From: Anaerolineae bacterium
GTDB taxonomy: Bacteria > Chloroflexota > Anaerolineae > DRVO01
Direction: 5' to 3'
Assembly (NCBI GenBank): GCA_013178015.1
Contig: JABLXR010000015.1
Location: forward strand, 1 to 64,000
DNA length: 64,000 bases
Shown: in pieces, positions 2,889 to 41,527 of the stretch
How the letters are laid out: every line of letters begins with the position of its first letter
Numbering within the stretch: the first letter of the stretch is position 1
The notes under the pieces: generated by a model
Database searches by the model: none
Told to the model about the DNA's origin: nothing
Seen by the model: the letters and a program-made list of their open reading frames with translations, nothing else
Position numbers and translations under genes: made by a program

Positions 2889-5651
2889 CTACTTGGCCTC
2901 CAGCCAGTTCGGGCCCACCGCCACGTCAACCTTCAGGGGCGCGTCCAGGGGGAAGGCGTTCTCCATCACTTCGCGTACCAACGGCACCACCACCTCGACC
3001 TCGTCCTCAGGCCCCTCCAGAACCAGCTCGTCGTGGACCTGGAGGATCATCCGCGTCAGCAGGTCCCTGGCCTTCAACTCCTGGCTGAGACGGATCATAG
3101 CGATCTTGATGATGTCGGCGGCCGTTCCCTGGATGGGCATGTTGATGGCTGCCCTCTCCGCTTCCGCCCTCTGTACCCGCGACAGCCTCTCCCTACCTGA
3201 CAACTGCGGGAAGTACCGCCGCCGCCCCAGCAGGGTCTCCACATAGCCCTTCTCGGCCACCGAGGCCCGCACCCCCTCGATATACTCGCGCACTTTGGGG
3301 TAGTTGCGGAAGTAGGCCTCGATGAAGGCGCGGGACTCGGCCTCGCTCAGGTCGGACTGACGCGCCAGGCCGAAGGCACTCACTCCGTAGATGACGGCGA
3401 AGTTCACCGTCTTGGAGATGCGCCTCATCTCCGGCGTTACCTGCTCGATGGGGACCCCGTACGTGAGGGCGGCCGTGCTGGCGTGAATGTCCAGTCCCTC
3501 AGCAAAGGCGCGCAGCAGCCTCGGGTCCTGGGACACATGAGCCAGTATGCGCAGCTCCACCTGCGAGTAGTCGGCCCCGATGAGGAGACTGCCCGGCTCC
3601 GCCGTGAAAGCCCGCCTTATCCGGCGGCCTAACTCGGTGCGGATGGGGATGTTCTGCAGGTTAGGATCGCTAGAGGAGAGACGGCCAGTCACCGTTGCCG
3701 TCTGGTTGTACGAAGTGTGCACCCTACCCGTATGGGGATTGACCAATCCCGGGAGTGCCTCGGCATAGGTAGATTTGAGCTTGGAGAGTTGGCGGTGCTC
3801 CAGAATGAGGTCCACCACCTCGTGCTCCCCCCGAAGCTCTTCGAGCACCTCCGCCGCCGTGCTGTAGTGGCCGCTGGCGGTCCGTCGCAACCCCCCGCAC
3901 GGAAGCCTCAGCTGGTTGAACAGAAGATCGCTCAGCTGCTGCGTGCTGTTCACGTTCAGTGGATACCCGGCCAGCAGCCTGATCTGCGTAGTGATCTCCT
4001 CCAGCCGTCGCTCCAGCTCGGCAGAGAACTCTCTCAGGTAGTCCACGTCAATGCGGACGCCCTTAAGCTCCATCTCCGCCAATACCGGCACGAGGGGCAT
4101 CTCCACTTCGCGGAAGAGACGCCACTGCTCTCGCTCCCGTAGTTCCCGTTCCAGGAGCGGACGCAGTCGCAAGGTGGCATCGGCGTCGGCCGCCGCGTAG
4201 GGCGCCACCTCGCGCACCTCGCAGTCCGCCATGGACCGTTGCCTCCTGCCCTTGCCGATGATGTCGGTGATGGGAGTCATCTCTACCCCCAGGCGGCCCC
4301 AAGCCACTGCTTTCAGCCCGAAGCTGCGCTGGTCGGGATTGAGGATCCACTCCGCCACCATGGTGTCGAAATCCGGCCCTGAGGCATGCAGACCGTGCCG
4401 CTGCAGCATCTCCCAGTCATACTTGCTATTGTGGGCCACCTTCTCCACCGCGGGGTCCATGAGCACGGGGCCCAGTACCCTCCGCACCTCATCGAGGTCC
4501 AGGTTGCCGTTACCTTCGCTTCGGTGGCCCACCGGGATGTAGTACCCTCGGCCCTCTTCCAGAGCTAGCGATATGCCCACCAGCGCCGACGACACGGCAT
4601 CAAGAGCGTCGCTCTCCACGTCCAGAGCTATCATCTCGGCGTCGGCCGCCGCGGCGGCCAGCTTCTCCAGGGCCACCACCGAGTCTACGATCTCGTACTC
4701 GGTGGTGGCTTCCGAAGCCGACGTCTCCCTGGGACCCTCGGCCGGAGCGGGAGCCGTGAACAGGCTCAGCTGCCCCTCCTGCTGCTCCGTCAGCCGACCC
4801 ATCAGGCTGCGGAAGTCCAGCTCCCGAAAGAGCTGCTCTAGTGCCGCCATGTCGCCCTGCCCAACCCGGCACTGGTCTAGATCCAGCTCCAGAGGCACAT
4901 CGCGCCAAATGGTGACCAACTCGCGATTGCGGAGAGCCTCCGCCTCTCTGCCCTCTAGAGCCCGGCGAGCCCGGGCATTCTGAATCTCATCCAGGTGCTC
5001 GTAGATCCCCTCCAGCGTCTTGTACTGCCTCAAGAGCTCGGCCGCCGTCTTCTCGCCGATACCCTTGACCCCAGCCACGTTGTCCGACTTGTCCCCCACC
5101 AGGGCTTTGAAATCCGCTAGTTGCTCCGGCTCAAGGCCATAGCGCTCCACCACGCGCCTCCGGTCGTATACCACCGGATCCGAGAAGCGACGCCCGGGGG
5201 TTAGCACTCTGACGCCGCCGTCCACGAGCTGGAGGGCGTCCGTATCGCCCGTAACGATGAGGACCTCTATGCCCCTCTCGTTGGCTTTCTCCGACACCGT
5301 GCCGATGATGTCGTCCGCCTCCCAACCCTCCAACCCTACGGCGGGGATGTGAAGGGCCTGTAACAGCTCTCGGGCCCGCTCCAGCTGCGACCGGAGGCTG
5401 TCCGGCATCTGCTCCCGGTTGGCCTTGTACTCCTTGGCCTTCTCATGCCGGAACGAACGCCCGACGTCCATCGCCACCAGGGCGTAAGTCGGATGCCAGT
5501 CTCGAAGGACGTTCAGCAGCATAGCGGTGAAGCCGTAGATGGCGTTGGTGGGCTCCCCCTGACGGCTGGCCAGCGCATCGGGCACGCCGTGGAAGGCCCG
5601 GTACAATAGGGAGTGACCATCCACGATCATGAGCAAAGGACGCGAGGACAC
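2889..5651 (-). CDS. polA: DNA polymerase I
   Basis: Repair and Okazaki-fragment polymerase of about 920 residues with three domains. These are a 5' nuclease (1-290, LLMIVDGHSLLYRAFHG and VGDKSDNVAGVKGIGEKT), a 3'-5' exonuclease (about 330-510) and the polymerase (520-920). The exonuclease appears active: IALDVESD supplies the DxE pair, HNSKYDWE the second motif and YAAADADAT the third. Polymerase motifs are DYSQVELRILAHVSQD (A), KTVNFAVIYG (B; Phe retained) and QVHDELVLE (C). I chose the GTG at 5651, reading SSRPLLMIVDG, because AAGGAG lies 9 bases upstream; in-frame starts up to 5711 overlap the promoter. Confidence 0.96.
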   Translation of the reverse strand: MSSRPLLMIVDGHSLLYRAFHGVPDALASRQGEPTNAIYGFTAMLLNVLRDWHPTYALVAMDVGRSFRHEKAKEYKANREQMPDSLRSQLERARELLQALHIPAVGLEGWEADDIIGTVSEKANERGIEVLIVTGDTDALQLVDGGVRVLTPGRRFSDPVVYDRRRVVERYGLEPEQLADFKALVGDKSDNVAGVKGIGEKTAAELLRQYKTLEGIYEHLDEIQNARARRALEGREAEALRNRELVTIWRDVPLELDLDQCRVGQGDMAALEQLFRELDFRSLMGRLTEQQEGQLSLFTAPAPAEGPRETSASEATTEYEIVDSVVALEKLAAAAADAEMIALDVESDALDAVSSALVGISLALEEGRGYYIPVGHRSEGNGNLDLDEVRRVLGPVLMDPAVEKVAHNSKYDWEMLQRHGLHASGPDFDTMVAEWILNPDQRSFGLKAVAWGRLGVEMTPITDIIGKGRRQRSMADCEVREVAPYAAADADATLRLRPLLERELREREQWRLFREVEMPLVPVLAEMELKGVRIDVDYLREFSAELERRLEEITTQIRLLAGYPLNVNSTQQLSDLLFNQLRLPCGGLRRTASGHYSTAAEVLEELRGEHEVVDLILEHRQLSKLKSTYAEALPGLVNPHTGRVHTSYNQTATVTGRLSSSDPNLQNIPIRTELGRRIRRAFTAEPGSLLIGADYSQVELRILAHVSQDPRLLRAFAEGLDIHASTAALTYGVPIEQVTPEMRRISKTVNFAVIYGVSAFGLARQSDLSEAESRAFIEAYFRNYPKVREYIEGVRASVAEKGYVETLLGRRRYFPQLSGRERLSRVQRAEAERAAINMPIQGTAADIIKIAMIRLSQELKARDLLTRMILQVHDELVLEGPEDEVEVVVPLVREVMENAFPLDAPLKVDVAVGPNWLEAK

Positions 5652-8038: not shown

Positions 8039-8364
8039 GCCTCGTGGTTGAGGAGTCTAGCCAGCGTGCGGGAGCCGGTCAAGGCACCTGCTCAGGCATA
8101 GGTTTCTCTGCCCCACGCCCCCGCCCTCCTCGCGGCCTTTGCCTGCCACCCATGCCTGTGCTAGCATGCCGAAAGGCGCTCGCAACCTCGGGGTACGCCT
8201 TGCCCGACGGTGGCCGGGCGTCAGCATCGAGTCGATTAGGAGGCTCCCTGGGGTAGGCTGCCCAGCCGGACGTCGTAGGAGCCCATGGATAGCGAAGACC
8301 CTCATCTCCCCCCAGGCCGTCGGCACTCGTTCTTCCGCCGGTGCCTTCTGGACTTAGGTAGCCC
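8039..8364. other. Divergent intergenic region
   Basis: This separates the isomerase-like gene from the ABC exporter operon. No convincing gene or strong promoter match was found. The weak AGGT before the exporter's GTG start lies at its right end. Confidence 0.4.
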
Positions 8365-10182
8365 GTGGACACGCTGAAGCGCCTCGTAGCTCAGTACCTG
8401 CTCCGCTATTGGAGGCACGCTGTTCTCACCTACTTCTGTATGACCGTGACCACCGTGACTGGGCTGGTGGTGCCTCTGGTGATCCGCAGTGTAATAGACC
8501 TTGGCCTGACCGGGCGCGATCCCGCCCTCATAGACCGGGCTGGCCTGATCATTGTGGGCATCAGTGCTGCTTCCGCCCTCTTCTCCTTCGGGCACCGCTA
8601 TCTGCATGCCTGGCTGGCCGAGCATATGGCCTACGACATGCGCAACGACCTGTACGATCACCTGCAGCGGCTCTCCTTCTCTTACCACGACCGCACCGAC
8701 ACCGGCCAGCTCATCTCCCGCTGCACCTCCGACGTCAACGCGGTGCTGCGCTTCTCCGGCTGGGCCATCATGCAGGCCGTCAACATCGTCCTGCTCTCCG
8801 CCATCGCCCTCACCATCCTCTTCACCACCGACTGGCGTCTGGCAGCTGTGTCGCTCCTCCCGCTCCCTGTGGTGGCCGTGATGGCGGTGGTGTTCCGTCA
8901 GCGGATTCGCCCTGTCTTCCGCGCCATACAGCAGCAGTTTGCCGTCATGACCACCGTCCTGCAGGAGAATCTGCTGGGAGCCCAGGTGGTGCGGGCCTTC
9001 GCTCGACAGGACTATGAGATCTCCAAGTTCAACACCGAGGTGGACCGAGTTCGCCGTCACCGGCTCCAGGCCATACGCTACTGGGTCACGAACAACCAGC
9101 TCAATATCTTCCTGTTCGGGCTTTGCACTACCTTGCTCCTGCTCTACGGCGGCCCCCGCGTCATGGCCGGCGAGCTGACCGTGGGCATCCTGGTCGCCTT
9201 CAGCGGCTACCTGGCCCTCCTCTCCGGTCCCATCCAGAGCATTGGCGAGATCGTCAACTCGGCCACCGAGGCCACCGCGGCCGGAGAACGCATCTTCGAG
9301 ATCCTGGATACCCGGCCCGAGGTGGCCGACCGGCCCGGCGCCATCGAAGCCCCCACCTTCCGGGGCAACGTGACGTTCGATCATGTGAGTTTCCGCTACA
9401 CCAGTCGCGACCTGACGCACGAGGGACCGTACTCGGTGCATGACGTGTCCTTCACCGCTGAGCCCAACCAGGTAGTAGCGATCGTGGGCCCTACCGGCTG
9501 CGGCAAGAGCACCCTCGTCAGCCTGATCCCCCGCTTCTACGACGTCACCGAGGGTGCGGTGCGGATTGACGGGATGGACGTGCGCGACCTGACCCTCGAG
9601 TCCCTGCGCCGGCAGGTAGGCATCGTGTTCCAGGAGCCTCTACTCTTCACCGGCACCATCCGAGAGAACATCGCCTACGGCCGTCCCGAGGCGACCATGG
9701 ATGAGATCGAGCGCGCCGCCAGGATCGCCCAGGCCCACGACTTCATCACCGCCTTCCCCGAGGGCTACGATACCTTCGTGGGCGAGCGTGGGTACACCCT
9801 CTCCGGGGGACAGCGCCAGCGTGTGTCTATCGCCAGGGCCATCCTGCTGGATCCTCGCATCCTTATCCTAGACGACGCCACCGCGGCGGTGGACACCGAG
9901 ACCGAGCACCTGATACAGCTGGCCCTGGCCGAAGTCATGCGTGGACGCACCACCTTCGTCATCGCCCAGCGTCTCACTACGGCGAAAGCGGCCGACATGA
10001 TTCTGGTGATGGACCACGGGAGGGTGGTGGAACGAGGCACTCACGAGGAGCTTCTGCAGCACTCCGGCCTCTACCGGCGCATCTACGACCTGCAGCTGCG
10101 TGATCAGGAAGAGCAACTAGCGAGAGACGGGCTGGCCGGAAGGCCTCTCAGTGCCTTGTCGCACCGGAGGGTGAACTCGTGA
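8365..10182 (+). CDS. ABC exporter subunit with degenerate ATP site (half-transporter 1)
   Basis: A 605-residue fused permease-ATPase of the multidrug/lipid exporter type: six membrane segments (about residues 15-310) and an ATPase domain (about 340-590). Walker A is GPTGCGKST and the signature LSGGQ is intact. In Walker B, ILILDDATAAVD, the catalytic Glu is replaced by Asp. The H-loop, VIAQRLTT, has Gln instead of His. These are the marks of the degenerate half of heterodimeric exporters such as TM287/288. It starts with GTG and overlaps the next gene by 4 bases (GTGA), so the two subunits are translationally coupled. Substrate is unknown. Confidence 0.9.
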   Translation: MDTLKRLVAQYLLRYWRHAVLTYFCMTVTTVTGLVVPLVIRSVIDLGLTGRDPALIDRAGLIIVGISAASALFSFGHRYLHAWLAEHMAYDMRNDLYDHLQRLSFSYHDRTDTGQLISRCTSDVNAVLRFSGWAIMQAVNIVLLSAIALTILFTTDWRLAAVSLLPLPVVAVMAVVFRQRIRPVFRAIQQQFAVMTTVLQENLLGAQVVRAFARQDYEISKFNTEVDRVRRHRLQAIRYWVTNNQLNIFLFGLCTTLLLLYGGPRVMAGELTVGILVAFSGYLALLSGPIQSIGEIVNSATEATAAGERIFEILDTRPEVADRPGAIEAPTFRGNVTFDHVSFRYTSRDLTHEGPYSVHDVSFTAEPNQVVAIVGPTGCGKSTLVSLIPRFYDVTEGAVRIDGMDVRDLTLESLRRQVGIVFQEPLLFTGTIRENIAYGRPEATMDEIERAARIAQAHDFITAFPEGYDTFVGERGYTLSGGQRQRVSIARAILLDPRILILDDATAAVDTETEHLIQLALAEVMRGRTTFVIAQRLTTAKAADMILVMDHGRVVERGTHEELLQHSGLYRRIYDLQLRDQEEQLARDGLAGRPLSALSHRRVNS

Positions 10183-12071
10183 ACAGCGCCCGAGGTGGTG
10201 TGGCCAGCTCGCCCGCAACCGCCCGGATGGAGCGGGAACGTCGGTCCGTAGCGCCGCCGGCGCCCCGCCCGGACGAGGTGGAGGACCGGTATGCCGAATA
10301 CGACCCCGACATCGCTCGTCGGCTGGCGGGCTACATCCGTCCCTACTCCCGCATGCTGGGGACAGCCTTGGTGCTGGTCCTCACCGCCTCCGCCCTAAGC
10401 CTCGCCGGCCCCTATGTGGTGAGACTAGCCATAGACGAGGGCATCGTTGCCCGGAACCTCACCGCCCTCGTCGTGTCGGCCTTGGGTTTCACCGGCCTCA
10501 ACCTGATCGCGTGGCGCATCCGGGTGAAGCAGGCCGACATCCTGTCGCGCACCGGCCAGGGTATCATGTACGACATCCGCACTCAGCTGTTCGCCCACCT
10601 TCAACGCCTGTCCATGCGGTTCTTCGATACCCACGAAGTCGGGCGCATCATCTCTCGCATGATCTCAGACGTTCACGTGCTGGAGGACTTCGCCACCTGG
10701 GCCATCGTTCAGGTGGTCAACGACACCTTCGTGCTGGCGGGCATCGTGGCCGTGATGTTGGCGATGGATGTGCGTCTCTCCCTTCTGACCTTCACGGTAC
10801 TGCCGTTCATGGCCGTGGGCACCTTCATATGGCGAGCCAAGGCCCGCGACAGCTACCGCGAGGTGCGCCGGGCCATCTCCCGCATCAACGGGAGCCTGGC
10901 CGAGAACATCAGCGGGGTACGGGTAGTGCAGGCGCTGGTGCGGGAGCGGCTCAACTTCGACATCTTCAAGGGCATCAATCGCCACAACCTGGACATCAAC
11001 CTGTACGCCGCTAGGCTCTCCGCCATCTACTTCCCTTCAGTCGAGTTCGCCAACGCAGTCGCTACTGCTATGGTGGTGTGGTTCGGCGGCCGCCAGGTCC
11101 TCGCCGGCCACATCACCGAGGGAGCCCTGGTGGCCTTCCTTCTCTACGTAGGTCGTTTCTTCATGCCTGTTCGCGACCTGGCCATGCGCTACAACTCCCT
11201 CCTCGCCACCATGGCTTCCGGCGAGCGCATCTTTCAGTTGCTGGACACACCGCCGGACATCGAAGACAAACCTGACGCCCAGCCCCTTCCTCCCATCCAG
11301 GGACGGGTGACCTTCGATGACGTTAGCTTCAGCTACTCTCCGGACAAGCCTGTCATCGAGCACGTTTCCTTCGAGGTGGAGCCAGGCCAGACTGTCGCCT
11401 TCGTCGGCTCCACCGGCGCCGGCAAAACCTCCCTCATCAAGCTACTGGCCCGCTTCTACGACGTGACTGGAGGCGCGATCAGGATCGATGGGCACGACAT
11501 CCGCGATGTGACTCAGGAGTCGCTGCACCGCCAGATCGCCATCGTCCTCCAGGAGAACTACCTCTTCTCTGGGAGCGTCCTCGACAACATCCGCTACGGC
11601 AGGCTCGAGGCCACTGAGGAAGAGGTGGTGGAAGCGGCTCGGGCGGTGGGGGCACACGAGTTCATCAGCCAGCTACCTTATGGCTACCACACCGAAGTAC
11701 AGGAGGGAGGCGCCATCCTCTCTACTGGGCAGCGCCAGCTCATCGCCTTCGCCCGCGCCCTGTTGGCCGACCCCAGGATACTGGTTCTGGATGAAGCCAC
11801 CGCCAACATAGATACCGAGACGGAGAGGCTAATCCAGCAGGCCCTCAGGCGACTGCTTCAGGGACGCACTTCGTTCGTAATCGCCCACCGCCTGTCCACC
11901 ATAGTCCAGTCGGATATGATCGTGGTGATCGAGCGGGGGCGGGTGCAAGAGATGGGCACGCACGAGGAACTGCTGGCCAGGCGGGGCCGATACTACGAGC
12001 TCTACACCTTGCTGTACTCGCGCCAACAGCAAGCCCTCTCAGTAGGGAACAGCTGGGGCAAGACCGCCTGA
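10179..12071 (+). CDS. ABC exporter subunit with catalytic Glu (half-transporter 2)
   Basis: A 630-residue partner of the preceding subunit. An extra hydrophilic N-terminus of about 45 residues precedes six membrane helices (about 55-340) and an ATPase domain (370-610). Walker A is GSTGAGKTS, Walker B ILVLDEATANID keeps the catalytic Glu and VIAHRLST keeps the His. The signature is altered to LSTGQ. Together with subunit 1 this gives one competent site (this Walker A/B with the LSGGQ of subunit 1) and one degenerate site. The GTG start overlaps the upstream stop. The operon ends here, against the convergent rnhB. Confidence 0.9.
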   Translation: MNSARGGVASSPATARMERERRSVAPPAPRPDEVEDRYAEYDPDIARRLAGYIRPYSRMLGTALVLVLTASALSLAGPYVVRLAIDEGIVARNLTALVVSALGFTGLNLIAWRIRVKQADILSRTGQGIMYDIRTQLFAHLQRLSMRFFDTHEVGRIISRMISDVHVLEDFATWAIVQVVNDTFVLAGIVAVMLAMDVRLSLLTFTVLPFMAVGTFIWRAKARDSYREVRRAISRINGSLAENISGVRVVQALVRERLNFDIFKGINRHNLDINLYAARLSAIYFPSVEFANAVATAMVVWFGGRQVLAGHITEGALVAFLLYVGRFFMPVRDLAMRYNSLLATMASGERIFQLLDTPPDIEDKPDAQPLPPIQGRVTFDDVSFSYSPDKPVIEHVSFEVEPGQTVAFVGSTGAGKTSLIKLLARFYDVTGGAIRIDGHDIRDVTQESLHRQIAIVLQENYLFSGSVLDNIRYGRLEATEEEVVEAARAVGAHEFISQLPYGYHTEVQEGGAILSTGQRQLIAFARALLADPRILVLDEATANIDTETERLIQQALRRLLQGRTSFVIAHRLSTIVQSDMIVVIERGRVQEMGTHEELLARRGRYYELYTLLYSRQQQALSVGNSWGKTA

Positions 12072-13302: not shown

Positions 13303-13353
13303 GCTGCAGTCGGATAAGCACAAGCGCATAGCATCCTTTGGGAGGCACGCGAG

Positions 13354-17235: not shown

Positions 17236-17599
17236 CGCCCTAGTACACCGGTCACCGTGGCCGCACGGCGCAGTGAGCTCGCCGCCGCTCCAGCCAACTC
17301 ACCACCGAACCAGCGACGGCTGCACTTGCCTCCCCGATATCCATACCCGCTGGCTGCCCAACGGCTGCTGGAACCATCATCGGAACCCGGCACAGCACTT
17401 CAATTGCCAACTGGGCACAGCTGACCATGGTGTGAACCGCAGGACCTTCGCGCGCCGGCAGCAGGCCACAAGCGATCGACGGAAACGGCCATCTCGCTGG
17501 ATGATACCACGCCCGGGAGGGGCTGGATAGCGGAATGCTGACGATGGCGGCACGGCTTGTACGCCTGGCGGCCCGCACGTGCGCCTTCTCGGTGCGTGG
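17236..17599. other. Intergenic region, no gene seen
   Basis: Divergent spacer between the kinase and the ABC operon. No supported coding frame. The operon's promoter lies at its right end. Confidence 0.4.
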
Positions 17600-36764: not shown

Positions 36765-38339
36765 CTACCGAGCTACCTCCGCCAACGTGACCTGGACTTC
36801 CATCTCCTCGCCGTCGCGCAGCAAGGTGACGGTGACCTCGTCCCCTGGTTGGCGCTCCGCCAGGAGAGCGCGGACGTCTGCCGGCTGGGCCACCGGCTCC
36901 CCGTCCACCGCGACGATCACGTCCCCTCCCAGCAGCAGCCTTTGGCCATCCACAGTGGCCGGCTCAGAGCCACCCCGGATGCCGGCCTCATCGGCGGGAC
37001 TACCTGGCTGCACCGACTGCACCAGCACGCCCTCCTGGTCCTCGGGCAGGCCCATGGCCTCCGCAATGGCGGGAGTAAGCTCGACCCCCACCACTCCCAG
37101 CCTCGGGCCGGCGGGGACGGTGGGCCCGGGGCTCACCTGTGCCTCCTGCTCTCTGGGCCTGGCCTGTAGGGTGACCTCCACGGTCATCGGCTCGCCCTCT
37201 CGCAGCACAGTCACCGGCACCGTCTGACCTACCTCGGTGTGACGGGACAGGTAGGTGATCAGGTCGTCCACCCCCCGAATCTGCTCCCCGCCCACCGCCA
37301 CGATGACGTCGCCGCCCACGGGGACATTCGTGCCCATGACTTGCACTTCTTCCTCGCCGCCCCGGAGCCCCGCCTCGTCCGCGGGCCCACCGGGAGTCAC
37401 GGCTATCACCAAGGCGCCCCTCTGTCGCTCGGGCAGCCCCATGGCCTCGGCCAGGGCCGGGTTGAGCGTAGTCCCCGTGATGCCGATGTACGGATGCTGA
37501 TACTGGCCCGTCTCGATGAGGGACGGCACCACCTTCGCCACGATGCGCGAGGGCACGGCGAAACCCACCCCGGCGGAGACCCCAGCGGGCGAGATGATCG
37601 AGGTCGGCACCCCGATGAGCCGCCCCTGAGCGTCCACCAGCACCCCACCCGAGTTGCCCGGGTTGATGGGGGCGTCGGTCTGGATGACGTCGGGGACGCT
37701 GTACTGAGACCCGCCGGTCACAGAGGTACCCACCGGAAGGAGCCGCCCCACCGCGCTCACCACACCCAGAGTGAGGGAGCCCTGGAGGCCGAACGGGTTG
37801 CCGATGGCTATGGCAAGCTGTCCCACCTGCACCTGGGTAGAATCGGCCACCTCCACGGGCACCAGTTGCTCGGCCGGCACATCCACTCTGATCACGGCCA
37901 GGTCGCTGTCCGGATCGGTCCCCACCACCTCGGCCTCGACGGTGGTGCCGTCCTGGAAGGTGACCTGAATCAGGTCAGCCCCGGCCACCACGTGGTAGTT
38001 GGTCACCACGTGGCCCTCAGTGTCCCAGACGAAGCCCGACCCCACACCTCTCTGTACTTCGGGCGGCTGGCCGAAGGGGACATCTGGGAGCAAGGACGAC
38101 GGCGCCTGCCGGGCCATCTGGATGTTCACCACCGAGGGAATGAGTCGCTGGTAGACGGAGGTGACAGTTCCCTCGAAGGCCGCAATCACTCCTTGATCCA
38201 CGCCCATGCCGACACCGGGGGCCGTGGCGGTAGCGGTCGCATCCAAAGTAGGCGTTGGGGTCTGGGCAGAAGATGGCAATGCCACGAGCAAGCAGAGCAC
38301 CAGCACCAGCATCAGCGCATTCGCCAACACACGTCTCAT
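36765..38339 (-). CDS. HtrA/DegP-type serine protease with two PDZ domains
   Basis: A 524-residue envelope quality-control protease. A signal peptide or anchor (LANALMLVLVLCLLVALPSS) precedes a Thr/Pro/Ala-rich linker. The trypsin-like domain holds the triad as TNYHVV (His116), DSDLAVIRV (Asp146) and NPGNSGGVL (Ser230). PDZ 1 starts near YIGITGTTLNPALAEAMGL and PDZ 2 near LGVVGVELTPAIAEAMGL. It should act outside the membrane. AGGAGG lies 6 bases before the ATG at 38339; an in-frame GTG at 38342 is also possible. It has no cognate sigma or anti-sigma gene nearby. Confidence 0.94.
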   Translation of the reverse strand: MRRVLANALMLVLVLCLLVALPSSAQTPTPTLDATATATAPGVGMGVDQGVIAAFEGTVTSVYQRLIPSVVNIQMARQAPSSLLPDVPFGQPPEVQRGVGSGFVWDTEGHVVTNYHVVAGADLIQVTFQDGTTVEAEVVGTDPDSDLAVIRVDVPAEQLVPVEVADSTQVQVGQLAIAIGNPFGLQGSLTLGVVSAVGRLLPVGTSVTGGSQYSVPDVIQTDAPINPGNSGGVLVDAQGRLIGVPTSIISPAGVSAGVGFAVPSRIVAKVVPSLIETGQYQHPYIGITGTTLNPALAEAMGLPERQRGALVIAVTPGGPADEAGLRGGEEEVQVMGTNVPVGGDVIVAVGGEQIRGVDDLITYLSRHTEVGQTVPVTVLREGEPMTVEVTLQARPREQEAQVSPGPTVPAGPRLGVVGVELTPAIAEAMGLPEDQEGVLVQSVQPGSPADEAGIRGGSEPATVDGQRLLLGGDVIVAVDGEPVAQPADVRALLAERQPGDEVTVTLLRDGEEMEVQVTLAEVAR

Positions 38340-38436
38340 CACTAACCTCCTGCGATAACGTCAGATCAGCGGTAGCAGCATCAGTCAACCGATCGGCAAC
38401 TCAGCGCCCGTCCCGAACAACGACACTGTCAGGACG

Positions 38437-38465
38437 CATATAGCACACCAGGTCCGGGCCTGCAA
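38437..38465 (-). promoter_or_regulatory. Possible htrA promoter
   Basis: TTGCAG (38460-38465), 17 bases, TATATG (38437-38442) on the minus strand, about 100 bases before the start codon. Confidence 0.35.
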
Positions 38466-38625
38466 AGCCATCGATGCACCCACGCGTCCCTACGGACCAC
38501 CGGGGCAGGAGAGCTTCTGCACCGGGCGGTAGGTCTGGGCTGGCGGCCCAGGCTCAGCGATCGGCAAACCGGCGTGGATCGGCCTCCCTTCAGAAGCGTG
38601 CCGCTGTCCGCGGCCGACCATCCGT

Positions 38626-39903
38626 TCACCCGTGGATGGCGCCCCCTAGCAAGGCCCGCAGAAGGGAGGGGCGGTCGACTATACCCTGGAGTCGGCCTTC
38701 GCCGTCAACCAGAACGATGCTGCGCCTGCCTTCCTGCGCCAGCAAGCGGATTCCCTCGGCGATGGCGGCCGAAGCAGCAACGGTCACCGCCGGTGCCGAC
38801 ATGAGCTCGGCGGCCGTCTGCTGCGCCTCTCGGCCTTCCCCCGGGGCGAGACCGACACGCGATATCAGCGCCCGAATGATGCCAGGACGGGCCTCAGGGC
38901 TCACCCGGGCCATGAGGTCACCGTCGGAGATGACCCCTAATGGCCGTCGCTCGCTGTCGAGTACCACCACCCGCCCCAGATCGGAGCGAGCCATGGCCAC
39001 AACCACCTCGCCGAGAGGGGCCTCAGGTGCGACGGCCGGCACGTCAGAGCGCATCAGGTCACGAAGCACATACAGCTCGCCGACAGGCGCTGGCGCAGCC
39101 TGCAGCCTCTGGGGTTCGTGAGCAACTTGGCGAATGACGTCACTACGGCTCAGCATACCCACCAGGCGGCCCTCGTCGTCCACCACTGGCAGCGTCTTGA
39201 CATTGCGCTGCACCATGAGGCTGGCGGCTTCGGCAAGTGACCGGCCCTGGCTCACGGTGACCACTTCTCCAGTCATGATCTCCTTGGCCGTGTGGCCGAC
39301 CGCCGCCAGCTCTTCCAAGAGGCACACCACGGCATCGTCCGTCAGGGCCTCAGGGCGCCGGAGACACAGGGCCAACTCTGGCCAGCGAAGGAAGTCGGCA
39401 TCGGCCACGATTCCCACCACAGTCCCCGACTGGTCCACCACCGGCACCGAAGTGAATCGGCTCGAGAGCAGGAGCCGAGCCACCTCGGCAAGAGGGGTAT
39501 CAGGCAGCACTGCTACGGGATCGGTGGTCATGACCTCGCTCACCCGGCGCCCCCTTGGGATCTGGGGCAGGTAGCGATGGCCGTACTTCACCACGTGGAT
39601 GGGCTCTAGAGTGATCAGGCCTTCCCCCACCATGGCCGAGACGAGCGGCAATACGGCCTCAATTCTCTCCGTCCGGTCCACTACCACCAACATCAGAGGC
39701 AGATCGGCGGAGAGCCGCACCAGAGTCGCCATCTTGATGCGGCTGTGGGCCCCGAAGCCAGCCAGTCCCCGCAAGACCGTGGCGCCCGCCAGATCCTCCT
39801 GGCGCAGCCGCTCCAGTAGCGCCTGCCACAGCGGGCGCCCGTGCCACTGATCGCTCTCGCCGAGATAGACAGTGAGGCGCTGGTACTGCGGGTGCTCCGT
39901 CAC
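38626..39903 (-). CDS. DUF190 and CBS-domain protein
   Basis: A 425-residue cytoplasmic protein. Residues 1-105 are a DUF190 domain (YQRLTVYLGESDQWHGRPLW and LPLMLVVVDRTERI). Four CBS motifs follow in two pairs, beginning near VSEVMTTDPVAVLPDTPL, AKEIMTGEVVTVSQGRSL, LRDLMRSDVPAVAPEAPL and AAELMSAPAVTVAASAAI. CBS pairs usually bind adenine nucleotides. DUF190 genes often neighbour crcB, and here the gene begins 16 bases after crcB under the same fluoride riboswitch. A role in sensing or adjusting fluoride export is inferred. The GTG start follows AGGAGGAGG. Confidence 0.87.
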   Translation of the reverse strand: MTEHPQYQRLTVYLGESDQWHGRPLWQALLERLRQEDLAGATVLRGLAGFGAHSRIKMATLVRLSADLPLMLVVVDRTERIEAVLPLVSAMVGEGLITLEPIHVVKYGHRYLPQIPRGRRVSEVMTTDPVAVLPDTPLAEVARLLLSSRFTSVPVVDQSGTVVGIVADADFLRWPELALCLRRPEALTDDAVVCLLEELAAVGHTAKEIMTGEVVTVSQGRSLAEAASLMVQRNVKTLPVVDDEGRLVGMLSRSDVIRQVAHEPQRLQAAPAPVGELYVLRDLMRSDVPAVAPEAPLGEVVVAMARSDLGRVVVLDSERRPLGVISDGDLMARVSPEARPGIIRALISRVGLAPGEGREAQQTAAELMSAPAVTVAASAAIAEGIRLLAQEGRRSIVLVDGEGRLQGIVDRPSLLRALLGGAIHG

Positions 39904-39919
39904 AACCTCCTCCTTTGCG

Positions 39920-40294
39920 CTAGATGCCAGCGGCCAGGCGCGCGCCCAGCCAGGCACCCACAAGGCCAAAGCCCACACTGAGGAGAACGTTGGCCAATGC
40001 GAGAAGCCAACTGCCTTCGTCCAGCAGAGCCAGGGTCTCGACGCTAAAGCTGGAAAAGGTGGTATAGGAGCCCAGGAAGCCCACGGCAAGGAGCAGCCTC
40101 CAGCGCGGGCTGAGCGCTATACGCTGAGTGGTGAGGATCAGAAGGAAGCCCAGGACCAAGCTGCCGGTGCAGTTCACCACGAGAGTGCCGAGCGGGAAGC
40201 CGGTGGCGAACCGGCTGTCAACCCAGACGCCCAGCCAGTAGCGGGCGTTGGCTCCCAGAACCGCTCCGATGCTTATGGCTGTGACTTGATCCAA
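39920..40294 (-). CDS. crcB: Fluoride exporter CrcB/Fluc
   Basis: A 124-residue membrane channel that works as a dual-topology dimer to expel fluoride. Four helices are visible. Conserved residues occur in GANARYWLG, TLVVNCTGSLVLGF (pore Asn) and GFLGSYTTFSSFSVE (the TTFSTF-like Phe box). The start appears to be TTG at 40294 with AGGAG about 10 bases upstream. It lies directly downstream of a fluoride riboswitch. Confidence 0.94.
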   Translation of the reverse strand: MDQVTAISIGAVLGANARYWLGVWVDSRFATGFPLGTLVVNCTGSLVLGFLLILTTQRIALSPRWRLLLAVGFLGSYTTFSSFSVETLALLDEGSWLLALANVLLSVGFGLVGAWLGARLAAGI

Positions 40295-40365
40295 AGTCGA
40301 GGCTCTCCTGAACGGCCGTCGGTCCTGGCCGGACCCGAACCCCTACCGGCGACCGCTTGGTCTGT

Positions 40366-40430
40366 GGTAGAGGCTATCAGCCGGACGCACCGACGGTTAC
40401 ACCCTCGCGGGACAGGCGAGCCTCATCGCC
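40366..40430 (-). promoter_or_regulatory. Fluoride riboswitch (crcB motif)
   Basis: On the minus strand the aptamer opens with GGCGATGAGGCTCGCC and ends GGCTGATAGCCTCTACC. These match the conserved ends of fluoride riboswitches such as that of Thermotoga petrophila, with a variable stem and TAAC between. AGGC/GCCT complementarity allows the expected pseudoknot. It ends about 70 bases before crcB. The intervening GC-rich stretch would be the expression platform, but I cannot tell termination from translation control. Confidence 0.88.
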
Positions 40431-40436
40431 AAGACC

Positions 40437-40442
40437 ATTCTA
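40437..40442 (-). promoter_or_regulatory. -10 element for riboswitch transcript
   Basis: TAGAAT on the minus strand lies 6 bases before the aptamer's first base, so transcription would start about at the aptamer. The -35 is poor. Confidence 0.5.
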
Positions 40443-40519
40443 CCCTCCCACCGCACCCCAGGCCAGGCAGCGACTCACCTCAGAGCCGTTGCCTCCAAGT
40501 GCACGCTGTCGTCGCTGCC

Positions 40520-41527
40520 CTACCCCCACTCAAGCACCACCCCCAACCACCCCGCGCGGCCGCGGCGCAGGGTGGCGTAGGCTTTCGGGGCAGCGTCGTA
40601 GGGCAGCCGGTGGGTGATGAGGTGGTCCACCCTGACCGAGCCGTCGCGCAGCAGGTCCAGGAACAGGGCCCGGTTGCGCCGCTGGGTCCAGGGGAAGTAG
40701 GCGTGCCCAACTACGGGCGACGCGGGTTGGAAGCAGCCGATGATGCTCAGCTCCCGCCGCTGCAGCTCGGTGAAGGGGTCTATCTCCACCTTGTCGGGCA
40801 GGCTGCCCACAATCAGGAGCCGGCCGTTCTGGGCCGCGGCCTTCATCATGGTGGGTATGGTGGCCGAGGTCCGGGTGGCGTCGAAGAGAGCATCGGCGCC
40901 CCGGCCGCCAGTGAGGCGCACGATGGCCTCCACCACGTCCTCCCGGCCCGGGCTGACGGTGGCGTCTGCGCCCGAGCGGCGAGCCAGCTCCAGCCGATCG
41001 TCCAGCAAGTCCACTGCGATCACTGGTCGGGCGCCCGATGATCGGGCCATCTGCACGATAAGCTGCCCCACCACTCCTGCGCCGAAGACGGCGACCGCCT
41101 CCCCCAGTTGCAGGTTGGCCCGGCGCACCGCGTGCATGGAGACGCTGCCCAAGACCGCGAACGTTGCCTGCTCCGGGTCCACCGCCGCCGGCACCGTCTC
41201 CCAGTAGGTGAGCCGCTCCGGAGAGAGGTCCAGCAGGAAGTGGGAGGTATGCTGGGATAGGGTAAGGATGCGTTCGCCCACGGCGGGGCGCTCGACACCC
41301 GGCCCCACCGCCTCCACCACGCCGACGTTGGAGTAGCCGGGGTAGACGGGATAGCCAGGGTGGGTGGGCAGCTCGCCCAGGTAGCGAGTGATCTCAGTGC
41401 CGGCGCTGATTAGGGTGTGCTCGGTGCGGACCAGAGCCTGCTGCGGGCCCGGCTCGGGGAGGACGAACTCCTCCACCTCGGCGACGCCGGGGCCGGTGAA
41501 TACGATGCGGTGGCCAGTCTGGGGCAT
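40520..41527 (-). CDS. Zinc-type alcohol dehydrogenase-like oxidoreductase
   Basis: A 335-residue medium-chain dehydrogenase/reductase. The catalytic domain has ISAGTEITRYLG, where most family members carry the zinc-ligand Cys, so it may lack catalytic zinc. The Rossmann motif is VAVFGAGVVGQLIVQMA. VIAVDLLDDRLELA holds the acidic residue expected for NAD preference. Substrate is unknown; relatives act on sugars or polyols. AGGAGG precedes the ATG. TATACT with an extended TGC (41559-41564, minus) may be its promoter. Confidence 0.83.
   Translation of the reverse strand: MPQTGHRIVFTGPGVAEVEEFVLPEPGPQQALVRTEHTLISAGTEITRYLGELPTHPGYPVYPGYSNVGVVEAVGPGVERPAVGERILTLSQHTSHFLLDLSPERLTYWETVPAAVDPEQATFAVLGSVSMHAVRRANLQLGEAVAVFGAGVVGQLIVQMARSSGARPVIAVDLLDDRLELARRSGADATVSPGREDVVEAIVRLTGGRGADALFDATRTSATIPTMMKAAAQNGRLLIVGSLPDKVEIDPFTELQRRELSIIGCFQPASPVVGHAYFPWTQRRNRALFLDLLRDGSVRVDHLITHRLPYDAAPKAYATLRRGRAGWLGVVLEWG

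Follow-up and report, generated by a model that had tools for sequence, protein, structure and literature searches.

The window analysed here, a 64-kb stretch of DNA from an Anaerolineae bacterium, holds on its minus strand a crcB gene followed by a gene in which a DUF190 domain is joined to four CBS motifs. Two questions are raised by this locus: (i) whether, and by what means, the two genes are controlled by a fluoride riboswitch; and (ii) what a fusion of this kind might do beside a fluoride channel. A previous reading, made from the sequence alone, placed a fluoride aptamer ahead of crcB and proposed that export is tuned to the energy state of the cell. The features on which the answers depend are the following:

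40437..40442, minus: TAGAAT, a -10-like hexamer 6 bases 5′ of P1 (sequence)
40366..40430, minus: predicted fluoride riboswitch aptamer (RF01734 score and full-pseudoknot pattern)
40430-40427 and 40418-40415, minus: P1, GGCG with CGCC (sequence)
40424-40419 and 40375-40370, minus: pseudoknot, GAGGCT with AGCCTC, giving six Watson-Crick pairs (GAGGCU/AGCCUC)
40402..40411, minus: hairpin insert CCC-GCGA-GGG in the P1-P3 interval (seen in the sequence and as an insertion in the Rfam alignment)
40338..40347, minus: antisense arm GGTAGGGGTT, the complement of the 3′ end of the aptamer (10 bp in the free fold)
40299..40310, minus: Shine-Dalgarno segment CAGGAGAGCCTC, whose complementarity to aptamer GAGGCTCGCCTG (40424-40413) covers 11 of 12 positions
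39920..40294, minus: crcB, a Fluc-type fluoride channel of 124 aa with a TTG start (PF02537, TIGR00494)
38626..39903, minus: gene for the DUF190-CBS4 fusion protein of 425 aa, starting with GTG (Pfam, alignment with 34 relatives, model pLDDT 84.5)
39592..39879, minus: DUF190 (PII-like) domain, with a T-loop-like segment at residues 56-64 (PF02641, fold matches)
38632..39555, minus: four CBS motifs, as two Bateman pairs (PF00571, AMPK-gamma-like fold)

The predicted aptamer and the leader RNA of crcB

The segment at 40430-40366 of the minus strand is almost certainly a fluoride (crcB-motif) aptamer, as judged from its match to the known family. The Rfam model RF01734 aligns to 40439-40361 (minus strand) over model positions 1-64, its whole length, and scores 33.7 bits (E 9.4e-8, or 2.6e-7 for the same match in a search of the whole genome). 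The gathering score is 34 bits, 0.3 higher, and a default Rfam scan of the window therefore omits the aptamer; the shortfall is due to an insert of 13 nt between P1 and P3, within which the listed hairpin can form. Long P1-P3 linkers are found in 22 of 42 distinct related aptamers (L049, L077, L084, L120, L150, L154, L220 and others), many with a stable hairpin, and such linkers may depress Rfam scores and hide members of the family.

The Rfam fluoride model takes no account of the pseudoknot. Because the variable linker of the related aptamers was misaligned by MAFFT, the search used, in place of a covariance model of our own, a pattern in which P1, the TGAT box and the six pseudoknot pairs are all obligatory. 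It matches once in the 64-kb window, at 40430-40366 of the minus strand, and in 43 of 184 related loci, with no match in 6.39 Mb of shuffled sequence. Among the relatives the letters of P1 and the pseudoknot covary, and several other pseudoknot pairings occur there. The pairing on which the sequence-only reading had staked the aptamer can thus form, and that reading was also right about the position of the aptamer, the TAGAAT six bases upstream of P1 and the order of the genes, crcB starting on the same strand 71 nt beyond the aptamer. TANAAT-type hexamers lie at a similar distance 5′ of many related aptamers; near this one, no -35/-10 pair passes a consensus scan. The riboswitch itself is of an ordinary, known kind, sharing with the RF01734 motif P1, the P3 region, the conserved boxes and a 6-bp pseudoknot before crcB, and differing in its 13-nt hairpin insert and in an apparent masking of the Shine-Dalgarno sequence.

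Most related leaders continue from the aptamer 3′ end, AGCCUCUACC, into GGUAGAGGCUUUUU, an intrinsic terminator in competition with the aptamer. Where the relatives carry GTAGAGGCTTTTT the window has its antisense arm, kept as GGUAGGGGUU and followed by CGGGUCC, so that the U-run present in most relatives is absent; the arm is a terminator relic without its U-run. Further downstream lies CAGGAGAGCCUC, which holds the crcB Shine-Dalgarno and whose complementarity to aptamer GAGGCUCGCCUG, that is, the P1 loop and the 3′ side of P1, extends over 11 of 12 positions; the minimum-energy fold contains this pairing and that of the antisense arm together. When the aptamer is imposed on the fold, the AGGA of the Shine-Dalgarno is unpaired with a probability of 0.81-0.95; when it is not imposed, the probability is near 0 for all but one base. 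Matches of the 11/12 grade are expected by chance 1.5 times over both strands of the window, which corresponds to a chance of about 4e-4 within the roughly 30 nt of a ribosome-binding region. The match-count test was used because duplex-energy shuffling does not discriminate in GC-rich sequence; by the latter test the pairing is not significant.

The expression platform appears to have been converted from a terminator to Shine-Dalgarno masking, and translational ON control by the riboswitch is the explanation that we consider probable. Without fluoride, the antisense arm (40347-40338) would bind the 3′ strand of the pseudoknot and GAGGCUCGCCUG, the 5′ strand, would mask the Shine-Dalgarno segment, leaving crcB poorly translated. 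With fluoride, both strands would be locked in the pseudoknot, the Shine-Dalgarno segment would be free, and the channel and its partner would be made. Translational fluoride riboswitches are described from Burkholderia pseudomallei and Pseudomonas syringae (PMC13273304). It is also conceivable, although in our view unlikely, that transcription is the main point of control, the antisense hairpin terminating without a U-run (or through Rho) and the Shine-Dalgarno complementarity being coincidental. The arm still makes its 10 pairs, as would be needed, and most relatives use terminators; the Shine-Dalgarno pairing, moreover, was not found in other related leaders that lack the U-run, and is therefore a local feature. 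However, no terminator-like site was found in 38200-40700, the arm runs into CGGGUCC rather than into U residues, and so close a match at the ribosome-binding site is rare by chance.

The DUF190-CBS4 protein and its association with crcB

The identity of both genes is well supported by profile searches. The crcB product scores 100.7 bits with PF02537 (6.7e-29; cut-off 32.9) and 110.8 bits with TIGR00494 (cut-off 80.45). The product of the gene that begins 16 nt beyond it, which had been read as DUF190 fused to four CBS motifs, is matched by PF02641 (3.6e-35) and, in four stretches, by PF00571 (5.2e-55), and bears out that description. Behind its aptamer, the pair is predicted to be a fluoride-induced two-gene operon.

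AlphaFold2 models the whole fusion with a mean pLDDT of 84.5 and the DUF190 domain alone with 82.7, and the predicted monomer of DUF190 has a PII-like ferredoxin fold. Its first structural matches are PH1503 (2DCL, 42% identity) and TM0021 (1O51, a 'PII-like signaling protein', 34% identity), and further matches include PII, SbtB with AMP, ADP or ATP, SbtA-SbtB and GlnK-AmtB. PH1503 and TM0021, of the family DUF190/UPF0166/COG1993, share the whole domain with its GATV.RG..GFG and LS.DLP segments, but are small, separate proteins, whereas the window protein carries a C-terminal four-CBS module. GlnK (with AmtB) and SbtB (with SbtA) resemble the domain in predicted fold, in the T-loop-like segment and in having a gene that adjoins one for a membrane channel; they differ in that identity is only 12-20%, the candidate target here is the dimeric Fluc, and the CBS module is additional. 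The T-loop-like segment (residues 56-64) has low pLDDT and is poorly ordered, yet it is conserved: GATV.RG..GFG...S and LS.DLP, which surround it, are kept in fused and separate DUF190 alike, and the residues of this region are mostly conserved also in archaeal and Thermotoga proteins.

The CBS part of the model matches MJ1225, SSO3205-AMP and AMPK gamma. Like the AMPK gamma-like proteins MJ1225 and SSO3205, it has two Bateman pairs and a conserved Asp in CBS1-3, where this residue, a candidate ribose contact typical of nucleotide-binding CBS motifs, is 91-99% conserved; it differs from them in a degenerate CBS4, from which the Asp is absent, and in its PII-like fusion partner. In the alignment with 34 relatives, the window's own CBS1 has ADAD in place of TDGD. 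A search of plasmids gave CBS-type matches only, none of which spans the whole fusion protein.

Of the 396 class genomes, 105 have DUF190. About half of the class loci that were fetched encode a fusion that includes four CBS domains and measures some 420 aa; the remainder are mostly separate DUF190 proteins of about 110 aa. About 95% of DUF190 loci, whether fused or separate, have crcB as an adjoining gene. Within the class sample, it is directly upstream of 50/51 separate and 49/52 fused DUF190 genes, and among 80 named fusion loci, a set that overlaps the class sample in some genomes, it is upstream in 67 and downstream in 8. In the phylum of one carrier labelled 'Deltaproteobacteria', the 30 best DUF190 loci include 29 with crcB within 1.5 kb and only three with a fusion. 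Across 41 relatives, the six genomes with DUF190 all fall within the nine with crcB (p ~2e-5, hypergeometric). The statement in the sequence-only reading that DUF190 habitually accompanies crcB is thus supported in two phyla.

Several fusion loci seem to lack crcB when the upstream side alone is considered; eight have it directly downstream. The gene is present in 10 of the 11 genomes whose fusion seemed to lack it as a neighbour, and in two genomes of one genus it is 9-12 kb from the fusion. No ORF fusing CrcB to DUF190 was seen.

The fusion is not unique to the window's genome, but represents a family that is frequent in Anaerolineae and less so in other groups. Among the named carriers, Anaerolineae and other Chloroflexota predominate, including the cultured Anaerolinea thermolimosa IMO-1, together with a few records labelled Deltaproteobacteria, Proteobacteria or Acidobacteriota. 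On a 151-row DUF190 tree, built from a short alignment and with weak forks, the label 'fusion' changes twice, as compared with 44 changes for shuffled labels, and the family is therefore possibly of single origin. In the searchable literature, which holds few of the subscription journals, no report was found that connects DUF190 either to fluoride riboswitches or to CBS domains, and the DUF190-CBS4 protein is undescribed. The placement of DUF190 beside crcB, plain from sequence, is likewise undiscussed there; the available passages of DUF190 papers contain no discussion of crcB.

Further fluoride aptamers and the genes linked to them

The window's genome contains at least five further fluoride aptamers:

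L012 (G000:C58) 8224-8284, plus: further aptamer
L012 (G000:C58) 8951-9011, plus: further aptamer
L012 (G000:C58) 13304-13351, plus: further aptamer
L012 (G000:C58) 17528-17578, minus: further aptamer
L013 (G000:C13) 10250-10314, minus: further aptamer

The genes behind them encode an enolase fragment, a MoxR-like AAA protein, a dynamin-like GTPase, DUF6062 and an MFS protein, the last of which itself precedes a dynamin-like GTPase. The enolase linked to the riboswitch on C58 (L012 8330-8875) consists of the N-terminal domain only and is followed immediately by another aptamer, the full enolase of the genome being on a different contig (G000:C43:14898-15749); the truncation reflects either gene decay or an assembly fault. 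Both DUF6062 copies in the genome (L224 and L225; G000:C58:16702-17358 and C13:87137-87748) lie behind fluoride aptamers, and one of the two forms part of a fusion with a dynamin-like GTPase. The DUF6062 gene of L157 (5371-6147) follows an aptamer-led enolase. DUF6062 may be a fluoride-response family.

A locus labelled Deltaproteobacteria (L195 1927-8838) has two divergent fluoride aptamers, after which genes for a Na+/H+ exchanger, DUF190-CBS, crcB, a dynamin-like GTPase and enolase follow in that order on one strand; the dynamin link hence recurs beyond Chloroflexota. No report of fluoride riboswitches and dynamin together was found in the searchable literature. In four Anaerolineae loci (L055, L144, L169 and L186), two long genes separate the fluoride aptamer from crcB-DUF190-CBS, and in L144 both of these have MutS domain V. 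L062 has a second, diverged DUF190 gene of 98 aa (3070-3363) directly behind the aptamer, ahead of crcB and the fusion.

Possible control of the channel by the fusion protein

From the predicted structures, we infer that the fusion may regulate the fluoride channel as a dedicated PII-like protein that responds to adenylates. The DUF190 domain would act on CrcB through the conserved T-loop-like segment, in the manner of GlnK on AmtB or SbtB on SbtA, and the fused double Bateman module would sense adenine nucleotides, so that fluoride efflux would be set by the energy of the cell. The near-constant pairing with crcB, the PII, SbtB and GlnK matches, and the conservation of the T-loop-like segment and the Asp count in favour of such a regulator; the lack of a CrcB-DUF190 fused ORF counts against it, as do, for adenylate sensing, the CBS4 without Asp and the ADAD of CBS1. 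That DUF190 acts on CrcB while the Bateman module reads adenine nucleotides, adjusting efflux to energy, seems to us a finely balanced possibility. The earlier suggestion that export may be tuned to energy state gains support from the PII/SbtB-type fold of DUF190 and the AMPK-gamma-like fold of the CBS part. More tentatively, DUF190 could be a dedicated PII-type Fluc regulator across prokaryotes, to which the Chloroflexota fusion would add an AMPK-gamma-like module to make a combined PII and Bateman energy sensor. We know of no channel for which a combined regulator architecture of this kind has been described.

PII proteins and their known targets AmtB and SbtA are trimers, and Fluc is an antiparallel dimer; simple plugging of Fluc does not fit this mismatch. 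The chief rival to a channel regulator, which we regard as rather doubtful, dispenses with contact to CrcB altogether: DUF190-CBS would be a soluble adenylate sensor acting on another member of the fluoride response, adjusting enolase, pyrophosphatase, an antiporter or some other enzyme once glycolysis is blocked by fluoride. Such a role would sit well not only with the mismatch but also with related operons that add enolase, pyrophosphatase, a phosphatase-family enzyme, a Na+/H+ exchanger or MutS-like genes, with the loci in which the fusion precedes crcB, and with the two genomes in which crcB is distant. These additional genes vary, however, whereas crcB recurs far more constantly than any other neighbour, in two phyla and for separate DUF190 too, and the PII-fold relatives with known targets include regulators of transporters and channels. 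A further reading, that under fluoride stress the CBS module makes the protein a ribosome-associated dormancy factor comparable to SriA-D and Dri, which are CBS proteins of archaea, is very improbable. Chains of SriA/SriB and Dri do rank with the best hits of the CBS part in both structure and sequence, but AMPK-gamma and MJ1225 fill the same score range, so that the resemblance is to the four-CBS fold in general; nor is there a link between DUF190 and the ribosome, the constant neighbour being crcB.

A guess that DUF190 proteins modulate channels as GlnK does appears in a passage of the Pelobacter genome paper (PMC3543383). A passage on Caulobacter lists DUF190 among czr/zntA genes (PMC4176598), and on that account the family may serve other transporters too.

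Finally, we note what a regulator of this kind would mean. The presence of a PII-fold protein by crcB in nearly all sampled DUF190 loci, from two bacterial phyla, suggests a testable job for an uncharacterised family, and the cultured Anaerolinea thermolimosa carries the fusion, a single-chain protein in which to ask whether energy state controls fluoride efflux. To our knowledge, Fluc channels are treated as ungated. Bacteria may control fluoride export both before and after the channel is synthesized.
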